Virus record (IMG/VR): IMGVR_UViG_3300043775_002633 | Span: 1 to 32,662 of that record | Length of the DNA stretch: 32,662 bases | Source of the DNA: a virus | Strand: one strand, 5' to 3' | Shown: positions 21,293 to 32,375 of the stretch, one piece after another | Numbering within the stretch: position 1 is the stretch's first letter | Layout of the letters: each line of letters starts with the position of its first letter | Made by a program: the position numbers and the translations under genes | Notes under the pieces: model-generated | The model's input: the letters and a program-made list of their open reading frames with translations, nothing else | Databases searched by the model: none | Told to the model about the DNA's origin: nothing

Positions 21293-22294
21293 ATGTTTGA
21301 GTATTTTTATAACGAAATTTTAAGAAAAACAGTCATATCTTTCGGATCTCTGTTTAATAACATATCAATCAAACATACCAACAATTCAAATGAAGTCATT
21401 GATGTTATAAAAGTTCCATTAGCTTATGGTCCAACTCAGAAATTTTTAGCAAGACTTGAGCAATCTCCAGATTTAAACAAACCAGTTCAAATTACATTAC
21501 CAAGAATGTCTTTTGAATTTACTGGATTGACTTATGATGCTTCAAGAAAGGTAACTACAACTCAATCATTTACTGTAAAGTCATCAACAGATGGATCTGT
21601 AGTTAAGAAAACTTATATGCCAGTTCCATACAATTTACAATTTGAATTGGCAATTATGGCAAAATTAAACGATGATGCTTTACAGATAGTTGAACAAATT
21701 TTACCATATTTTCAACCGTCTTATACTTTAACCATTGAACTTGTTGATGGAATTAATGAAAAAAGAGATATTCCTATAATTTTAGAAAATGTAACCTTTC
21801 AAGATGATTATGAAGGAAATTTTACAACTAGAAGAGTATTGATTTATACTTTAAGGTTTACCGCAAAAACGTATCTTTTTGGTCCAACTCAAACAGCAAC
21901 AAAAGATATTATCAAAAAATCTACGATCAGTTATATATCTGGAGATTCAACAACTACGCCAATCAGAGAAGTTATATATTCATCCGATGTACGTGCAATT
22001 AAAAATTATACGGGAATAGTCTTAACAAATCTCGCAAAAGATGTTACAACTGAAGATATTTTATTTGAAGTAAATGATGCTTCTACTATATCTGCAGACA
22101 CATATTTGGATATTGAAGGTGAGGAAATTTATGTCAAATTAAAAACTGGAAATGTTCTTACTGTGGATAGGGGAAGAGATAACACAACAATTACATCGCA
22201 TTTATCTGGAGCCGAAATAAAATCTATTACTACTACTGATAATACTTTAGTTGAATCCGGAGATGATTTTGGATTTGACGGTCAAACCGTATAA
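21293..22294 (+). CDS. gp15: Tail terminator / sheath stabilisation protein gp15
   Basis: gp15 caps the assembled tail tube and sheath and joins the tail to the neck. The start MFEYFYNEILRKTVISFGSL is close to T4 MFGYFYNSSFRRY. The core QIVEQILPYFQPSYT near residues 137-151 is almost identical to T4, and KRDIPIILENV follows the same pattern (T4 KRDIKIVLM). At 333 residues it is longer than T4 gp15 (272). The extra C-terminus (about residues 242-310) carries an IEGEEIYVK...LTVDRGRDNTT module that also occurs in two giant proteins of this window. gp16 starts four bases after its stop, so the two are co-transcribed. Confidence 0.95.
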   Translation: MFEYFYNEILRKTVISFGSLFNNISIKHTNNSNEVIDVIKVPLAYGPTQKFLARLEQSPDLNKPVQITLPRMSFEFTGLTYDASRKVTTTQSFTVKSSTDGSVVKKTYMPVPYNLQFELAIMAKLNDDALQIVEQILPYFQPSYTLTIELVDGINEKRDIPIILENVTFQDDYEGNFTTRRVLIYTLRFTAKTYLFGPTQTATKDIIKKSTISYISGDSTTTPIREVIYSSDVRAIKNYTGIVLTNLAKDVTTEDILFEVNDASTISADTYLDIEGEEIYVKLKTGNVLTVDRGRDNTTITSHLSGAEIKSITTTDNTLVESGDDFGFDGQTV

Positions 22295-22298
22295 AAAG

Positions 22299-22739
22299 AT
22301 GGCAAAAAAATTTGATAAACTAAATGACACGTTTAATGTTTCGGGTAAAATAATTTCTGCAAGCTCTGTAGAAAGTTCATTAGAATCTGAAATAGATAAA
22401 GTTTCATCCCCAATTAATGATATAAAAAAAGATTATGAATATACTAGAGGAAATTTATATTCATTGATTGAAAAAGGTCAAGAAGCAATCAATGGAATTT
22501 TAGAACTTGCACAAGAAAGTGAAATGCCAAGGGCATATGAAGTTGCTGGACAATTAATAAAAAGTGTAGCAGATGCAACAGACAAATTGATGGACCTTCA
22601 GAAAAAATTAAAAGATATTGAAGAAGAAAAAATAAGTAAAGGTCCAACCACCGTCAATAATGCACTTTTTGTTGGATCAACTGCAGATTTGGCAAAATTT
22701 TTAAAACAACAATCTCAAGGAAATGATGAAAACATTTAG
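22299..22739 (+). CDS. gp16: Terminase small subunit gp16
   Basis: The small terminase recognises concatemeric DNA and stimulates the gp17 motor. I choose the ATG at 22299 (MAKKFDKLNDTFN, 146 residues), four bases after the gp15 stop. An upstream in-frame ATG at 22251 would overlap gp15 by 44 bases and adds a sequence not expected for the family. The central part (DYEYTRGNLYSLIEKGQEAI, then LELAQESEMPRAYEVAGQLI) is helical and matches the coiled-coil oligomerisation core of T4-type gp16. The tail KGPTTVNNALFVGSTADLAK is characteristic of marine T4-like gp16. gp17 is not adjacent: two cationic genes lie between. Confidence 0.92.
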   Translation: MAKKFDKLNDTFNVSGKIISASSVESSLESEIDKVSSPINDIKKDYEYTRGNLYSLIEKGQEAINGILELAQESEMPRAYEVAGQLIKSVADATDKLMDLQKKLKDIEEEKISKGPTTVNNALFVGSTADLAKFLKQQSQGNDENI

Positions 22740-22860
22740 ACAGTTTCAAGAAGAGTGGAGTAATAAATATAAAAAGAGTATTAATTGCTCAAATCCAAAA
22801 GGATTTTCTCAACGTGCTTATTGTGCGGGAAGAAAAAGAGCAAAAAGTGAAAAAAATTAA
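22726..22860 (+). CDS. Small cationic protein with capsid-targeting-like start, 44 aa
   Basis: ATG at 22726, with an adjacent in-frame ATG at 22723; stop at 22858-22860. It overlaps the end of gp16 by 14-17 bases. The start MKTFRQFQEEW resembles the capsid-targeting sequence of T4 internal proteins IPI/IPII (MKTYQEFIAEA), which is removed by the prohead protease gp21 after Glu. The remainder holds a SINCSNPKGFSQRAYCAGRK block with two Cys and a strongly basic end (RKRAKSEKN), a short motif I recall from other marine phage proteins. It could therefore be a DNA-binding peptide packaged in the head. The gene is short, but its overlap, conserved-looking motifs and neighbours support it. The packaging role is inference. 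Confidence 0.7.
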   Translation: MKTFRQFQEEWSNKYKKSINCSNPKGFSQRAYCAGRKRAKSEKN

Positions 22861-22877
22861 ATTAACCCTAATGAATA

Positions 22878-24770
22878 ATGCCCAACCAAATCAAGACACA
22901 TAAAACAGTTGAACAAATTGCAAAAAAGCATCGTCTTGAGGTTGCTTTTATACAAAAGCAACTTGAAATGGGTGAACCAATTGAGCACGAGCATACTCAA
23001 GATCACGATTTAGCAAAAAACATTGCTCTTCAACATCTGGATGAAATTCCTGATTATTACACTCGTTTGAAAAAGATGGAAGCAGATGCTAAAAAACATC
23101 ATAAAAAATTTAAAGATGTTACTGAAGAAGGTCTTAGAGATTGGTTTGGAAAATCTAAATCAAAAGATGGAAAATCTGGATGGGTCAATGTTGTGACTGG
23201 TGGAACTTGTGCAAGTGATGAACCAAGAGAAGGAACTCCCAAATGTGTTTCTTCTACAAAAAGAGCAAGTATGAGTCCTGCGGAACGGCGTTCGGCAGCA
23301 AGAAGAAAAAAGGCAGCAGATCCAGAACAACAACAAAAAACAGGTGCTGCAAAACCAACATATGTTTCTACAGATAAACCTAAAAAGAAAATGAACGAAG
23401 AAACGGACAAAAAAGGTAAAGGTAGTGGCAAAAAAGATGCTTGCTACCATAAAGTAAAGTCTAGATATGATGTTTGGCCAAGTGCATATGCTTCTGGAGC
23501 ACTGGTTAAATGCCGTAAGGTTGGTGCTGCAAATTGGGGAACGAAATCAGAATCAACTATGAACGAAGAAGAAAGATATTGTCCCTTATGCGATAAAAGA
23601 GAAACAAGATCTGATTGTTCTTATGGTGGAAAAGCATGGGATAAAGTTTCTATAAAAGATCACGAATATTCAATGGTTCGTTCTGAACTTGAAACATTGA
23701 TGAATGCTGCACAAAGACTTAAGGCAAAAGTTGAAAATGGTGAGGGCAGTTTAGAAGCATGGGTTCAATCCAAAATTACCAAAGCAGCAGATTATATTGA
23801 TACTGCAGCAGATTATGTCGCAAGTGGAGAAATGGAGGAATCTGTAAGTCATACAATCAATCCCTCTGCACACAAAACTGCCCAAAAAAGAGAAAAAATT
23901 AGAAATATTGCAGTTAAAGGATCAACTGGTGGAGAGAGATCTGTTGCATCTTCAAAATTAGGAGCAACTGCAGAACTACCAACGATTAAAAAAGAAGAAA
24001 AACTGGTTAGTAAAATTAAAAATGAAATTCTTGATGAAAAGTGTTGGCCAGGATATAAGAAAAAAGGAATGAAGACGATGTTTGGTAAAAAATATCCAAA
24101 CTGTGTTAAAGCAGAGGAAAGTATTACTATCGAAGATGCTAATGGAAATACTTTTGCTGAAGTTGTAGATTTAATTAAACCGGAACCAATCAAAGGATTT
24201 AAATGCCAAATTGATGAAGTAACACGTCTCCAATCACAGTCAGGAAATATTATTGCAATTACTTTACTTTGGAGAGGAAAATATTACGGTATTAGAATGT
24301 TTTTTCCACAAATAAAAACTCCATCTCGTCAAGAAGTGAATGACGAAATTCAAAAAGTATATCCTGGGGCAAAGGTAGTATTTCACACAATTTCAGAATT
24401 TACTCCTGGACAACCTTTGATTCAAGCAGGATTTCAAGGAGGAAGTTCCGGAAAACTTGGTTTTAATAAAAACTATGTAAAACCTATGGGAGAAGAAGTT
24501 GAGATTAATGAAGATTGGCAAAGAGTCAATCGTCAAGATAAAACGGATGGTTTAAGTCCTGCTGCGGTTAAGGCATATCGTCGTGAAAATCCCGGATCAA
24601 AACTCCAAACTGCAGTAACCGAAAAGAACCCAACAGGAAAAAGAGCAAATCGTCGTAAATCATTTTGTAAACGTATGTCTGGAATGAAGTCCAAGTTAAC
24701 TTCCACTAAAACTGCAAGAGATCCAGATTCAAGAATTAATAAAGCACTTCGTCGTTGGAATTGTAACTGA
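22878..24770 (+). CDS. Cationic, Cys-rich mosaic protein between gp16 and gp17
   Basis: This 630-residue protein reads as a string of small modules joined by Lys/Glu-rich linkers. Residues 1-68: His-rich helical module (DLAKNIALQHLDEIPDYYTR). 80-165: GLRDWFGKSKSKDGKSGW, then CASDEP, PKCVSS and an Arg/Lys-rich helix. 186-220: CYHKVKSRYDVWPSAYASGA, then LVKCRK. 234-320: a CPLC...C zinc-knuckle-like segment followed by a helical part with SLEAWVQSKITKAADYIDTA. 388-412: CWPGYKKKGMKTMFGKKYPN, then CV. 415-516: an alpha/beta domain (LLWRGKYYGIRMFFPQIKTP). 582-629: KNPTGKRANRRKSFCKRMSG and an Arg-rich WNC end. These modules are familiar from marine phage and algal-virus proteins of unknown function. 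No enzyme site is seen. A packaged, DNA-bound head protein is my inference. Arg codons are often CGT in the basic tail. Confidence 0.8.
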   Translation: MPNQIKTHKTVEQIAKKHRLEVAFIQKQLEMGEPIEHEHTQDHDLAKNIALQHLDEIPDYYTRLKKMEADAKKHHKKFKDVTEEGLRDWFGKSKSKDGKSGWVNVVTGGTCASDEPREGTPKCVSSTKRASMSPAERRSAARRKKAADPEQQQKTGAAKPTYVSTDKPKKKMNEETDKKGKGSGKKDACYHKVKSRYDVWPSAYASGALVKCRKVGAANWGTKSESTMNEEERYCPLCDKRETRSDCSYGGKAWDKVSIKDHEYSMVRSELETLMNAAQRLKAKVENGEGSLEAWVQSKITKAADYIDTAADYVASGEMEESVSHTINPSAHKTAQKREKIRNIAVKGSTGGERSVASSKLGATAELPTIKKEEKLVSKIKNEILDEKCWPGYKKKGMKTMFGKKYPNCVKAEESITIEDANGNTFAEVVDLIKPEPIKGFKCQIDEVTRLQSQSGNIIAITLLWRGKYYGIRMFFPQIKTPSRQEVNDEIQKVYPGAKVVFHTISEFTPGQPLIQAGFQGGSSGKLGFNKNYVKPMGEEVEINEDWQRVNRQDKTDGLSPAAVKAYRRENPGSKLQTAVTEKNPTGKRANRRKSFCKRMSGMKSKLTSTKTARDPDSRINKALRRWNCN

Positions 24771-24785
24771 TAGGTAGGATTTATT

Positions 24786-26429
24786 ATGAGTGATGTATAT
24801 TTAGGTAATCCTCTTTTAAAGAAAGCAAATACTCCTATTGAATTTACACAAGAACAAATTATTGAATTTTTAAAGTGTAAAGATGATCCAGTATATTTTG
24901 CAAAAAATTATGTAAAAATTGTAACTCTCGATAAGGGATTGCAACCATTTCAAATGTATCCCTTTCAAGAGAAATTAGTTAACAATTTCCATAATCATAG
25001 ATTTAATATATGCAAGATGCCAAGACAGACTGGAAAGTCTACAACCGTGGTGTCATTTCTTCTACATTATGCAGTATTCAATGATAATGTAAATATCGGT
25101 ATTCTTGCTAACAAAGCCGCCACCGCAAGAGAACTTTTAGATCGTTTGCAAACTGCATATGAAAACCTACCAAAATGGATGCAACAGGGAATCATTTCTT
25201 GGAATAAGGGATCATTGGAATTGGAGAATGGAAGTAAAATCTTGGCTGCTTCTACTTCTGCTTCTGCGGTTCGTGGTATGTCTTTCAATATCCTCTTTTT
25301 GGACGAATTTGCGTTTGTTCCAAATCACATCGCAGATTCATTTTTTGCGTCGGTTTATCCTACAATTACTTCAGGTAAAAGTACAAAAGTAATTATTGTT
25401 TCTACCCCACACGGTATGAACCATTTTTACCGAATGTGGCATGATGCAGAAAAAGGTAAAAATGAATATTTATTTACAGATGTTCATTGGAGTGAAGTTC
25501 CAGGAAGAGATGAGGCATGGAAAGCACAAACTATTGCAAACACTTCTGAACAACAATTTAAAGTTGAGTTTGAATGTGAATTTTTAGGATCTGTTGACAC
25601 TTTAATTGCACCATCCAAACTAAGAAACCTTGTATACGATGCTCCTAAGACTCGCAGTGCTGGTCTAGATGTTTATGAAGATCCAATAGAAGAACATGAT
25701 TATCTCATCACTGTAGATGTTGCTAGGGGTGTTGGAAATGACTATTCAGCTTTTACTGTGATTGATATAACACAGTTTCCACATAAAGTTGTAGGAAAAT
25801 ATAGAAATAATGAAATCAAACCTATGCTTTTTCCGAGTATTATTGAGGAGATTGGAAAAAATTATAATGAGGCATATATTTTATGCGAAGTTAATGATGT
25901 TGGAGATCAAGTAGCTAGTATCCTTCAATACGATTTAGAATATAAAAATCTTCTCATGTGTTCTATGAGAGGAAGAGCAGGACAAATTGTAGGGCAAGGA
26001 TTTTCTGGAAAGAAAACTCAACTTGGAGTAAAAATGTCCAAGACGGTTAAAAAAGTTGGGTGCTTCAACCTTAAGACAATGATTGAGGAAGATAAGCTAT
26101 ATTTAAACGACTATGAGATAATATCCGAACTTACGACATTTATTCAAAAGCATAATTCATTTGAAGCTGAAGAAGGTTGTAATGATGATCTTGCAATGTG
26201 CTTAGTAATTTATGCATGGTTGGTTGCACAAGACTATTTTAAAGAGCTTACTGACCAAGATGTTAGAAAAAGATTATATGAAGAACAAAAAAATCAAATT
26301 GAACAAGATATGGCACCATTTGGATTCGTTTCTGATGGTATTGGTGAAAACAGTTTTGTTGATCAAGATGGAGATAGATGGTTTTTAGATGAATATGGGG
26401 ATCGTTCTTATATGTGGGAATATATGTAA
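24786..26429 (+). CDS. gp17: Terminase large subunit gp17
   Basis: ATP-driven DNA translocase and nuclease that packages DNA through the portal. The ATPase domain has the adenine-side QPFQMYPFQ at residues 53-61, Walker A PRQTGKST at 79-86, Walker B ILFLDEF at 169-175 with catalytic Glu174, and coupling motif STPHG at 206-210. The RNase H-like nuclease domain has ITVDVARG with Asp311, CEVNDVGD with Glu368, and a C-terminal NDDLAM with Asp467/468, corresponding to the T4 triad D401/E458/D542. Length of 547 is somewhat shorter than T4 (610). The start at 24786 follows a purine-rich GGTAGGATTT leader. It begins 15 bases after the mosaic gene, and a zinc-ribbon-like gene starts one base after its stop. 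Confidence 0.98.
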   Translation: MSDVYLGNPLLKKANTPIEFTQEQIIEFLKCKDDPVYFAKNYVKIVTLDKGLQPFQMYPFQEKLVNNFHNHRFNICKMPRQTGKSTTVVSFLLHYAVFNDNVNIGILANKAATARELLDRLQTAYENLPKWMQQGIISWNKGSLELENGSKILAASTSASAVRGMSFNILFLDEFAFVPNHIADSFFASVYPTITSGKSTKVIIVSTPHGMNHFYRMWHDAEKGKNEYLFTDVHWSEVPGRDEAWKAQTIANTSEQQFKVEFECEFLGSVDTLIAPSKLRNLVYDAPKTRSAGLDVYEDPIEEHDYLITVDVARGVGNDYSAFTVIDITQFPHKVVGKYRNNEIKPMLFPSIIEEIGKNYNEAYILCEVNDVGDQVASILQYDLEYKNLLMCSMRGRAGQIVGQGFSGKKTQLGVKMSKTVKKVGCFNLKTMIEEDKLYLNDYEIISELTTFIQKHNSFEAEEGCNDDLAMCLVIYAWLVAQDYFKELTDQDVRKRLYEEQKNQIEQDMAPFGFVSDGIGENSFVDQDGDRWFLDEYGDRSYMWEYM

Positions 26430-26430
26430 A

Positions 26431-26661
26431 ATGGAATTAGATAAACAAATAAAATTAGGACATTTATTATTAGTAGATAGAAAATGTAGAGTATGCAATG
26501 AAATAAAAAATTTAATAGATGGATTTTATCAAACACGTAAAGATAAGGGCAACGTATCATCATCATATTCTTATGAATGTAAAGAATGTACAATAAAAAG
26601 AATCATAAATTCTAAAAAAAATAATAAATTTATATGTAAATGGGAGTATCCTGACTGGTAA
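26431..26661 (+). CDS. Small zinc-ribbon-like protein, 76 aa
   Basis: I choose the ATG at 26431, one base after the gp17 stop. A longer reading from 26389 would overlap gp17 by 41 bases. The product has a CRVC pair near residue 21 and a CKEC pair near residue 50, spaced by KNLIDGFYQTRKDKGN and YSYE, followed by a Lys-rich tail ending FICKWEYPDW. C-x2-C...Y-x-C-x2-C arrangements of this sort occur in small phage proteins and at the N-terminus of endonuclease VII-type and HNH proteins, but there is no nuclease domain here. It is likely a zinc-binding nucleic-acid-binding peptide of unknown role. It is co-transcribed with gp17. Confidence 0.75.
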   Translation: MELDKQIKLGHLLLVDRKCRVCNEIKNLIDGFYQTRKDKGNVSSSYSYECKECTIKRIINSKKNNKFICKWEYPDW

Positions 26662-31466: not shown

Positions 31467-32375
31467 GTGGATGATTTTGGAGTTAAAATAGATTTATCAG
31501 ACTTTTTTTCTTCTATAAGTAACGAGAAGAAAAAGAAAAAGGAAGAATTTAACTCAATTGTTGGTGAATTAAATTTAAATATTATCTTTGAAGAAGTAAC
31601 TACTTTAAAAAAGAAAAATAAAATTAAAAAAAAGAAAGAAGAAAAGACTCTTGAATCTTTTGAAAATTGGTTGTATTCCACTAATGTAAAAGAACAACCA
31701 ATAGAGGAAGTTCAAGAAATTGTAGAAGAAGTCATTGAAGAAGTTCAGGAAATAGTAGACAATATAGTAGAGGAAAAAAAAGAAGGATCGACATTAATTG
31801 AAAAATCTTTAGGGATTCTTTCAGAACCTTCAAATACTAAAGTTCAAAATGATCCACTTACACCTTTGGATCAAAAGTTTGCAACACTTGACGATCTTCA
31901 AAAGCATTACAACTTATTCATAACAAGAATTCAACAACAACTTTCCACATTAGGTGGAAGTGGCGAAACTCATCTTGAGTTCCTTGATGATGTTGACAGA
32001 GATAGTGTAAAAAGAGACAATTATTTTCTCAAATACGATGCATCGATAAACAAATGGGTTGGTGATGATGGTGGTGGGGTTGGTATTACCAGCATTGTAT
32101 TCATAACTGGAGTTACTACCTATTATGCTGCAACAAGAGATGTTGATTATATTGGAGTCAGTGCTGATGTTCCAGTCACAATTGATTTACCAACTAACGC
32201 AGATCCAGGAAAACAAATTATTATAAAAGATGAGGGTAATAAAATATCTACATATAATATCACAGTTCGTGCTGGTATTGGGGCGAGTGTTGAAAATGAC
32301 ACTTCAGTTCTGATGAAAATCAATCACGAAAGTTTTACTTATTTTTACAATGGATATAACTGGTATATAATCTAA
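31467..32375 (+). CDS. Charged/coiled-coil virion protein with fibre-like C-terminal domain
   Basis: It starts at GTG 31467: an in-frame TAG sits immediately upstream and no usable ATG exists in the frame until near the end. A purine-rich GAGGAAGAG at 31452-31460 can serve as ribosome-binding site. Residues 1-75 are extremely Lys/Glu-rich (DLSDFFSSISNEKKKKKEEF). Residues 80-101 are two 11-residue EEVQEIV repeats. Residues about 135-170 hold KFATLDDLQKHYNLFITRIQ with QQLSTLGGSGE, a segment I recall from marine T4-like virion proteins. The end (YYAATRDVDYIGV, then TIDLPTNADPGKQIIIKDEG and FYNGYNWYII) is a phage fibre-type beta domain. Function unknown; it could be a core or scaffold-linked fibre or head decoration. 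Its stop overlaps the next ATG (TAATG). Confidence 0.78.
   Translation: MDDFGVKIDLSDFFSSISNEKKKKKEEFNSIVGELNLNIIFEEVTTLKKKNKIKKKKEEKTLESFENWLYSTNVKEQPIEEVQEIVEEVIEEVQEIVDNIVEEKKEGSTLIEKSLGILSEPSNTKVQNDPLTPLDQKFATLDDLQKHYNLFITRIQQQLSTLGGSGETHLEFLDDVDRDSVKRDNYFLKYDASINKWVGDDGGGVGITSIVFITGVTTYYAATRDVDYIGVSADVPVTIDLPTNADPGKQIIIKDEGNKISTYNITVRAGIGASVENDTSVLMKINHESFTYFYNGYNWYII
31704..31769 (+). repeat. Tandem 33-base (11-residue) repeat, two copies
   Basis: Copy 1 (31704-31736) codes EEVQEIVEEVI; copy 2 (31737-31769) codes EEVQEIVDNIV. The 11-residue period is a hendecad, the unit of right-handed coiled coils. The following EEKKE begins like a third copy but then departs. Confidence 0.85.

Follow-up and report, generated by a model that had tools for sequence, protein, structure and literature searches.

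Genes between the two terminase subunits

The window, that is, the whole stretch of 32,662 nucleotides analysed here, is a fragment of a T4-like cyanophage from an uncultured IMG/VR record, and its nearest annotated relatives belong to the Kyanoviridae. In the ocean, T4-like cyanophages rank with the most abundant viruses. The genes for the small and large terminase subunits, gp16 and gp17, are separated in the window by two genes encoding a peptide of 44 residues (p44) and a modular basic protein of 630 residues (P630) (Table 1). This split, which the preliminary description had pointed out, is confirmed by the ORF coordinates and by family matches. The gp16 ORF (22251-22739) opens at a TTG codon at 22251, the likely start being an ATG at about 22299. 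The genes are tightly packed on the plus strand: the end of gp16 is overlapped by p44, 17 bases lie between p44 and P630, and 15 between P630 and gp17. Immediately 3' of gp17 there is an Endonuclease VII-like ORF (26389-26661), an arrangement common to many cyanophages, and the ORF at 31467-32375 after the portal gene, where T4-like phages have gp21 next, gives tail-fibre PHROG matches.

Table 1. Genes around the gp16-gp17 interval and the modules of P630, in window positions (CTS, capsid targeting sequence)
Feature	Position	Strand	Evidence and remarks
gp15, tail sheath stabiliser	21293..22294	+	PF16724 E=3.5e-83, phrog_227 E=3.5e-93; upstream context
gp16, terminase small subunit	22299..22739	+	PF11053 E=8.5e-9, phrog_445 E=3.3e-55
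p44, 44 aa	22726..22860	+	CTS-like start MKTFRQFQE, followed by the basic Cys peptide WSNKYKKSINCSNPKGFSQRAYCAGRKRAK
P630, 630-aa modular basic protein	22878..24770	+	T4-GC 119 family; phrog_727/3477
M1, DUF5661 (match at residues 12-68)	22878..23123	+	PF18905 E=8.2e-13; followed by candidate site VTE83|E
M2 (EEGLRDWFGK...TDKPKKKMN)	23124..23396	+	two Cys, basic; phrog_3477; followed by candidate site MNE174|E
M3 (KGSGKKDACYHKVKSRYDVWPSAYASGALVKCRKVGAANWG)	23397..23567	+	module Blast against relatives; ends at candidate site MNE230|E
M4a, CPLC...C zinc-ribbon-like stretch	23568..23654	+	module Blast against relatives
M4b, DHEYSM helical module, acidic	23655..23840	+	helices in model; ends at candidate site MEE321|S
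Linker	23841..24038	+	relatives lack it or vary here; ends at candidate site LDE387|K
M6 (KCWPGYKKKGMKTMFGKKYPNCVKAEE)	24039..24119	+	[LIVMF]xE at most 6 residues upstream in 30/30 aligned relatives
M7 and preceding stretch (SITIEDANG...)	24120..24452	+	candidate site IDE447|V; beta-beta-alpha-beta fold
M8, DUF6321, Arg-rich C-terminus	24510..24767	+	PF19846 E=9.6e-15; candidate site INE545|D
gp17, terminase large subunit	24786..26429	+	PF03237 E=3.1e-24, PF17289 E=9.4e-17; downstream context

The preliminary description contrasts the split with T4, where gp16 and gp17 are adjacent; a survey of 40 loci carrying both terminase genes adds a correction. The arrangement is not particular to the window genome, because all 40 loci have at least one P630 module between gp16 and gp17; separation of the two genes is thus the cyanophage norm. 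A multi-module relative of P630 occurs in 38 of these loci and a p44 homologue in 14. The gap ranges from 691 to 7212 nt with a median of 2263 and holds from one to about 12 ORFs in S-SM2, Bellamy, SynMITS9220M01, S-SRM01, S-T4, S-SKS1, S-SM1, Syn9 and others. A passage of PMC3037559, citing Millard 2009, describes the interval as a cyanophage hot-spot. Sullivan 2010 also names it as such and catalogues the P630 family as T4-GC 119.

Modules of P630 and candidate cleavage sites at their borders

P630 has a net charge of +36, a pI of 9.5 and 12 cysteines, and is a string of about eight small modules. Pfam recognises DUF5661 and DUF6321 alone, both domains of unknown function, while the whole protein matches phrog_727 (E=1.8e-101) and phrog_3477 (E=1.4e-83), for which PHROG assigns no function. 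NCBIfam and PADLOC searches returned nothing for P630 or p44, and P630 gave no significant match to the PDB by sequence. Homology extends over several modules in 54 non-redundant relatives, and when the eight window modules were searched against them by Blast, the modules were found to differ in order and number, M2 among those that change place and DUF6321 nearly always coming last. The earlier reading of P630 as separately recognisable modules is therefore borne out, since other phages hold the same units in different orders.

The exchange of units reaches beyond P630 itself. The p44 module is fused to the front of the P630 relative in S-SRM01, a Rosetta-stone fusion, and is embedded within the relative at locus L035, and in S-SKS1 the pieces of P630 are spread over separate ORFs. 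Relatives of M7 also occur as stand-alone ORFs headed by a CTS (start MKSFKQFLSES). A CTS-headed M7-like ORF was also observed in four related loci (L026, L032, L036 and L045) at about the place that corresponds to 31467-32375 of the window. In addition, the T7-like Prochlorococcus podovirus P-SCSP1a encodes DUF6321 alone, in a basic ORF of 84 residues (L106:5959-6213) directly 3' of the major capsid gene.

Structure prediction for the whole of P630 by AlphaFold was unusable as a global model (pLDDT 48.8, pTM 0.19), as would be expected if the modules are strung on disordered linkers; the shallowness of the alignment lowers confidence as well. When M7 was modelled by itself, the pLDDT was 71.9, with a core of about 83-90. 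Against the PDB this model retrieved nothing significant, and against a viral library it found P630 relatives and, weakly, a CTS-headed protein of S-T4 (E=2.2e-3).

The prohead protease gp21 of T4 cuts after L/I-x-E. P630 contains 13 sites of the form [LIVMF]xE, those at borders lying after residues 83, 174, 230, 321, 387, 447 and 545, and among the latter the strict L/I-x-E form is found at LDE387, IDE447 and INE545 only. The preliminary description had placed possible cuts at two MNEE stretches and at INE|D, and these positions are correct (after E174, E230 and E545). It held that the T4 consensus is only loosely met; in relatives the fit is closer, with borders such as IEE|A, VSE|A, LDE|K, LSE|K and IEE|G. 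The stretch before M7 in relatives reads IEE|A, VSE|A or VDE|A, with Glu at the same position in 32 of 32; that before M6 reads LDE|K or LSE|K, and that before M8 x-x-E|DWQ, where all 26 aligned relatives have Glu at -1. Furthermore, ILTE or LLTE is present at the expected place of prohead cleavage in the major capsid protein of each of S-SZBM1, S-CREM2 and Syn9.

Because the first borders had been drawn with the sequence in view, the test was repeated with borders set solely by the starts of Blast hits between rearranged relatives, and with rotation of the sites as the null. [LIVMF]xE occurred at 56 of 80 module N-borders (70%) against 26% under rotation (P=0.001), and strict [LI]xE at 27.5% against 9% (P=0.001), counts that are not independent because the sequences are related. 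The total of [LIVMF]xE was 676, compared with 464 +- 17 in shuffles. Enrichment was weaker at module C-borders (P=0.004) and absent there for [LI]xE. The strength of the pattern is that unrelated modules share it.

These borders bear on the principal alternative to processing, namely that P630 is packaged intact as a multi-domain DNA-binding or scaffold-core protein and that its [LIVMF]xE borders are non-working remnants of fused CTS-headed genes. Such genes do exist, since both M7 and p44 have relatives that stand alone behind a CTS, and CTS-like remnants are found inside relatives from S-T4 (AKSFEQFIGE), S-SM1 (LSFQDFQEK) and Syn9 (LTFQQFQEK). Moreover, Glu beside linkers is a common effect of composition, and Glu of any kind is itself enriched at the N-borders (75/80 versus 62%). 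The enrichment of hydrophobic-x-Glu nevertheless exceeds that of Glu alone, and the sites before M7 closely match the T4 gp21 rule, so we regard a P630 that stays intact as somewhat improbable.

Targeting motifs and virion proteins

Ten N-terminal residues of the internal protein IPIII are enough for packaging in T4; targeting depends on residues 4 and 7 of the CTS, and processing on residues 8 and 10. p44, with a net charge of +9 and a pI of 10.2, had no match in Pfam, PHROG, NCBIfam or PADLOC, and its homologues were found in 17 GenBank phage records, nearly all beginning MK[TS]FKQF[QR]E. The targeting residues, an aromatic at 4 and Phe at 7, are thus present both in the window (MKTFRQF) and in most homologues (MK[TS]FKQF), and the CTS-like start proposed for the small partner is conserved. 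Since position 8 is Gln rather than hydrophobic, and position 10, Glu in the window, varies among E, D, S and G across the family, p44 conforms to the T4 signal in its targeting residues, while its processing half is non-canonical. P630 itself begins with MPNQIKTHKTVEQ, which is not a CTS, and none of the family N-termini compared is a clear one.

A motif built from the published T4 residues, M..[FY]..F[LIVMF].E, heads four of the 219 ORFs of S-CREM2, and all four are among its 52 virion-detected proteins (P=0.0029), in a test that was not blind because N-termini had been seen before the motif was fixed. They are a SAM hydrolase, an APH-like kinase, ORF136 and a cytidylyltransferase; composition alone would give 0.02 matches. 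With position 4 relaxed, five of five were virion-detected (P=6.5e-4), while for a loose pattern the S-CREM2 result lacked significance (5 of 11 hits virion-detected, P=0.13). The motif was also checked in S-SZBM1, Syn9 and S-SCSM1. The virion-detected NMNAT of S-SCSM1 begins MKSFLQFLKEA, a match predicted beforehand, and the Syn9 cytidyltransferase begins MKKFSAFLSEA. In S-SZBM1 the strict pattern matched one annotated ORF (191), which was not virion-detected, and the virion-detected cytidylyltransferase carries a form shifted by one residue (MRFRQFIIEA). A Cas9-like virion protein carries the motif further in, near residue 19.

The virion-associated enzymes with the motif at or near their start comprise S-CREM2 ORFs 6, 12, 13, 14 and 154, S-SCSM1 ORF91 (L110:18820-20049), Syn9 gp184 and S-SZBM1_140. 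A small "virion protein" of S-SCSM1 (SSCSM1_93, L110:21627-21836) carries a CTS-like motif, KRTFKEFLEYIE, at its C-terminus and not at its N-terminus. Proteins resembling the N-arm of the major capsid protein (TGYTGG....GPVAGYDP.M) were seen as Syn9 gp190, S-CREM2 ORF160, SSCSM1_97, S-SM2_108 and L096:3976-4389, some of them virion-detected. On the strength of these N-termini, the motif could be the entry route of virion-associated cyanophage enzymes such as the SAM hydrolase, the Cas9-like nuclease, the kinase and the cytidylyltransferase/NMNAT. In a search of literature outside the subscription journals, "capsid targeting sequence" and "cyanophage" occurred together in a T4 review alone, so the connection appears to have been little noticed.

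Direct evidence on the P630 family comes from S-CREM2, where gp16 (ORF135), ORF136, ORF137 and gp17 (ORF138) follow one another and where mass spectrometry of CsCl-purified virions listed both ORF136 (24.1% coverage from 8 unique peptides) and ORF137 (4.1% from 4). ORF137 carries M7 and DUF6321, and its low coverage may reflect the few usable tryptic peptides of a Lys/Arg-rich protein; the authors of that study cautioned that proteins can co-purify in CsCl. ORF136 has a CTS (start MQTFSMFFSE) at the place equivalent to p44, yet it is a different basic protein, and the virion lists compared here contain no protein recognised as a homologue of p44. In S-SCSM1, ORF29 (M2, M3, M6, M4a, M7, M8; just 5' of gp17) is labelled "virion protein", and the CTS-headed ORF30 is not. 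The laboratory behind the record has published 45 virion proteins detected by mass spectrometry, and from the usage in the record we infer that the label denotes such detection. Among the 30 proteins detected in S-SZBM1 virions, the CTS-headed ORFs 191 and 192 of the interval, the latter with DUF6321, were absent. The P630 relatives of Syn9 and S-SM1 are annotated as hypothetical. Two proteins encoded between the terminase genes of S-SZBM1 and detected in its virions, S-SZBM1_190 and S-SZBM1_195, were considered as support and set aside, being unrelated to P630 and p44 by sequence.

The mixed detection record invites the explanation that p44 and P630 act inside the cell, late in infection, as accessory factors of packaging or DNA, such as terminase helpers or nucleoid proteins; they would be translated along with gp16 and gp17 and enter virion lists only as co-purifying contaminants. 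Their position beside the terminase genes and overlap with them, their high charge, the low peptide coverage in S-CREM2, the contamination caveat of its authors and the relatives in other phages that are undetected or unlabelled would all agree with this. Against it, the P630 family is in the virion lists of two different isolates, the adjoining terminase large subunit is absent from the S-CREM2 table and unlabelled as virion in S-SCSM1, and CTS-headed neighbours such as ORF136 of S-CREM2 are virion-detected; we therefore consider it unlikely. Still less probable is an external or a neck- or tail-associated structural role. In its favour, tail-fibre-like and decoration-like ORFs occupy the gap in other phages, some of them virion-detected (e.g. 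S-SZBM1_190 and _195). Against it, P630 shows no fibre or decoration similarity in Pfam or the PDB and is basic with disordered linkers.

A possible head-cargo system and its relation to known ones

The reading that we prefer, with a probability of roughly 0.5, is that the interval encodes a CTS-based head-cargo system in which P630 is a packaged polyprotein, probably cut by gp21. Together, p44 and P630 would be the cyanophage counterpart of the T4 internal proteins. The former, a small basic peptide with a T4-type CTS, would be carried into the prohead core. P630, a putative polyprotein of small, mostly basic modules with a candidate gp21-type site before each, some of which occur elsewhere as separate CTS-headed proteins, would be co-packaged, presence in virions being known from its relatives. 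To judge from the position of the motifs, gp21 probably cuts P630 at several border sites. The products would accompany the DNA inside the head and during delivery, and their likely roles are the coating or neutralising of DNA and early action against host functions.

A more specific form is offered tentatively. gp21 might divide P630 into at least seven small basic peptides that are delivered with the genome beside CTS-tagged enzymes (NMNAT, SAM hydrolase, kinase and possibly a Cas9-like nuclease), the modules being exchanged with stand-alone CTS genes. The proposal of the preliminary description, a packaged cassette that loads basic peptides into the head, thus stands in part: the detection of relatives in the virion data of S-CREM2 and S-SCSM1, the CTS-like start of p44 and the gp21-like sites speak for it, whereas P630 lacks an N-terminal CTS of its own. 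Several "regulatory" virion proteins of cyanophages have no known route into the head, and the CTS match provides a concrete and testable one. The P630 family would moreover be a modular polyprotein cargo, which is without counterpart in the T4 reviews consulted.

Among known systems, the T4 proteins IPI, IPII, IPIII and Alt are the nearest in kind: they too are small basic proteins with an N-terminal tag (aromatic at 4, Phe at 7), x-x-Glu processing sites, here candidates, and a place in the virion, here that of relatives. Unlike them, p44 and P630 are encoded between the terminase genes and show no sequence similarity beyond the tag, and P630 has many modules and repeated internal candidate sites without an N-terminal CTS. 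Giant phages, e.g. SPN3US, package head proteins with the DNA and process them by a prohead protease, according to passages of PMC5694885 and PMC10052503; the likeness lies in the many packaged and processed proteins, which in these passages are unrelated to P630. The DUF6321 ORF of P-SCSP1a resembles M8 alone, is Arg/Lys-rich and lies in a head gene cluster, but it belongs to a T7-like phage and has neither a CTS nor a polyprotein. The closest relatives are the members of T4-GC 119 (S-SM2_109, S-SM1_115; phrog_727/phrog_3477), catalogued as hypothetical or virion proteins only, for which the cited literature proposes no mechanism. P630 belongs to this family by homology and by position, and differs from the catalogued members in its additional N-terminal DUF5661.
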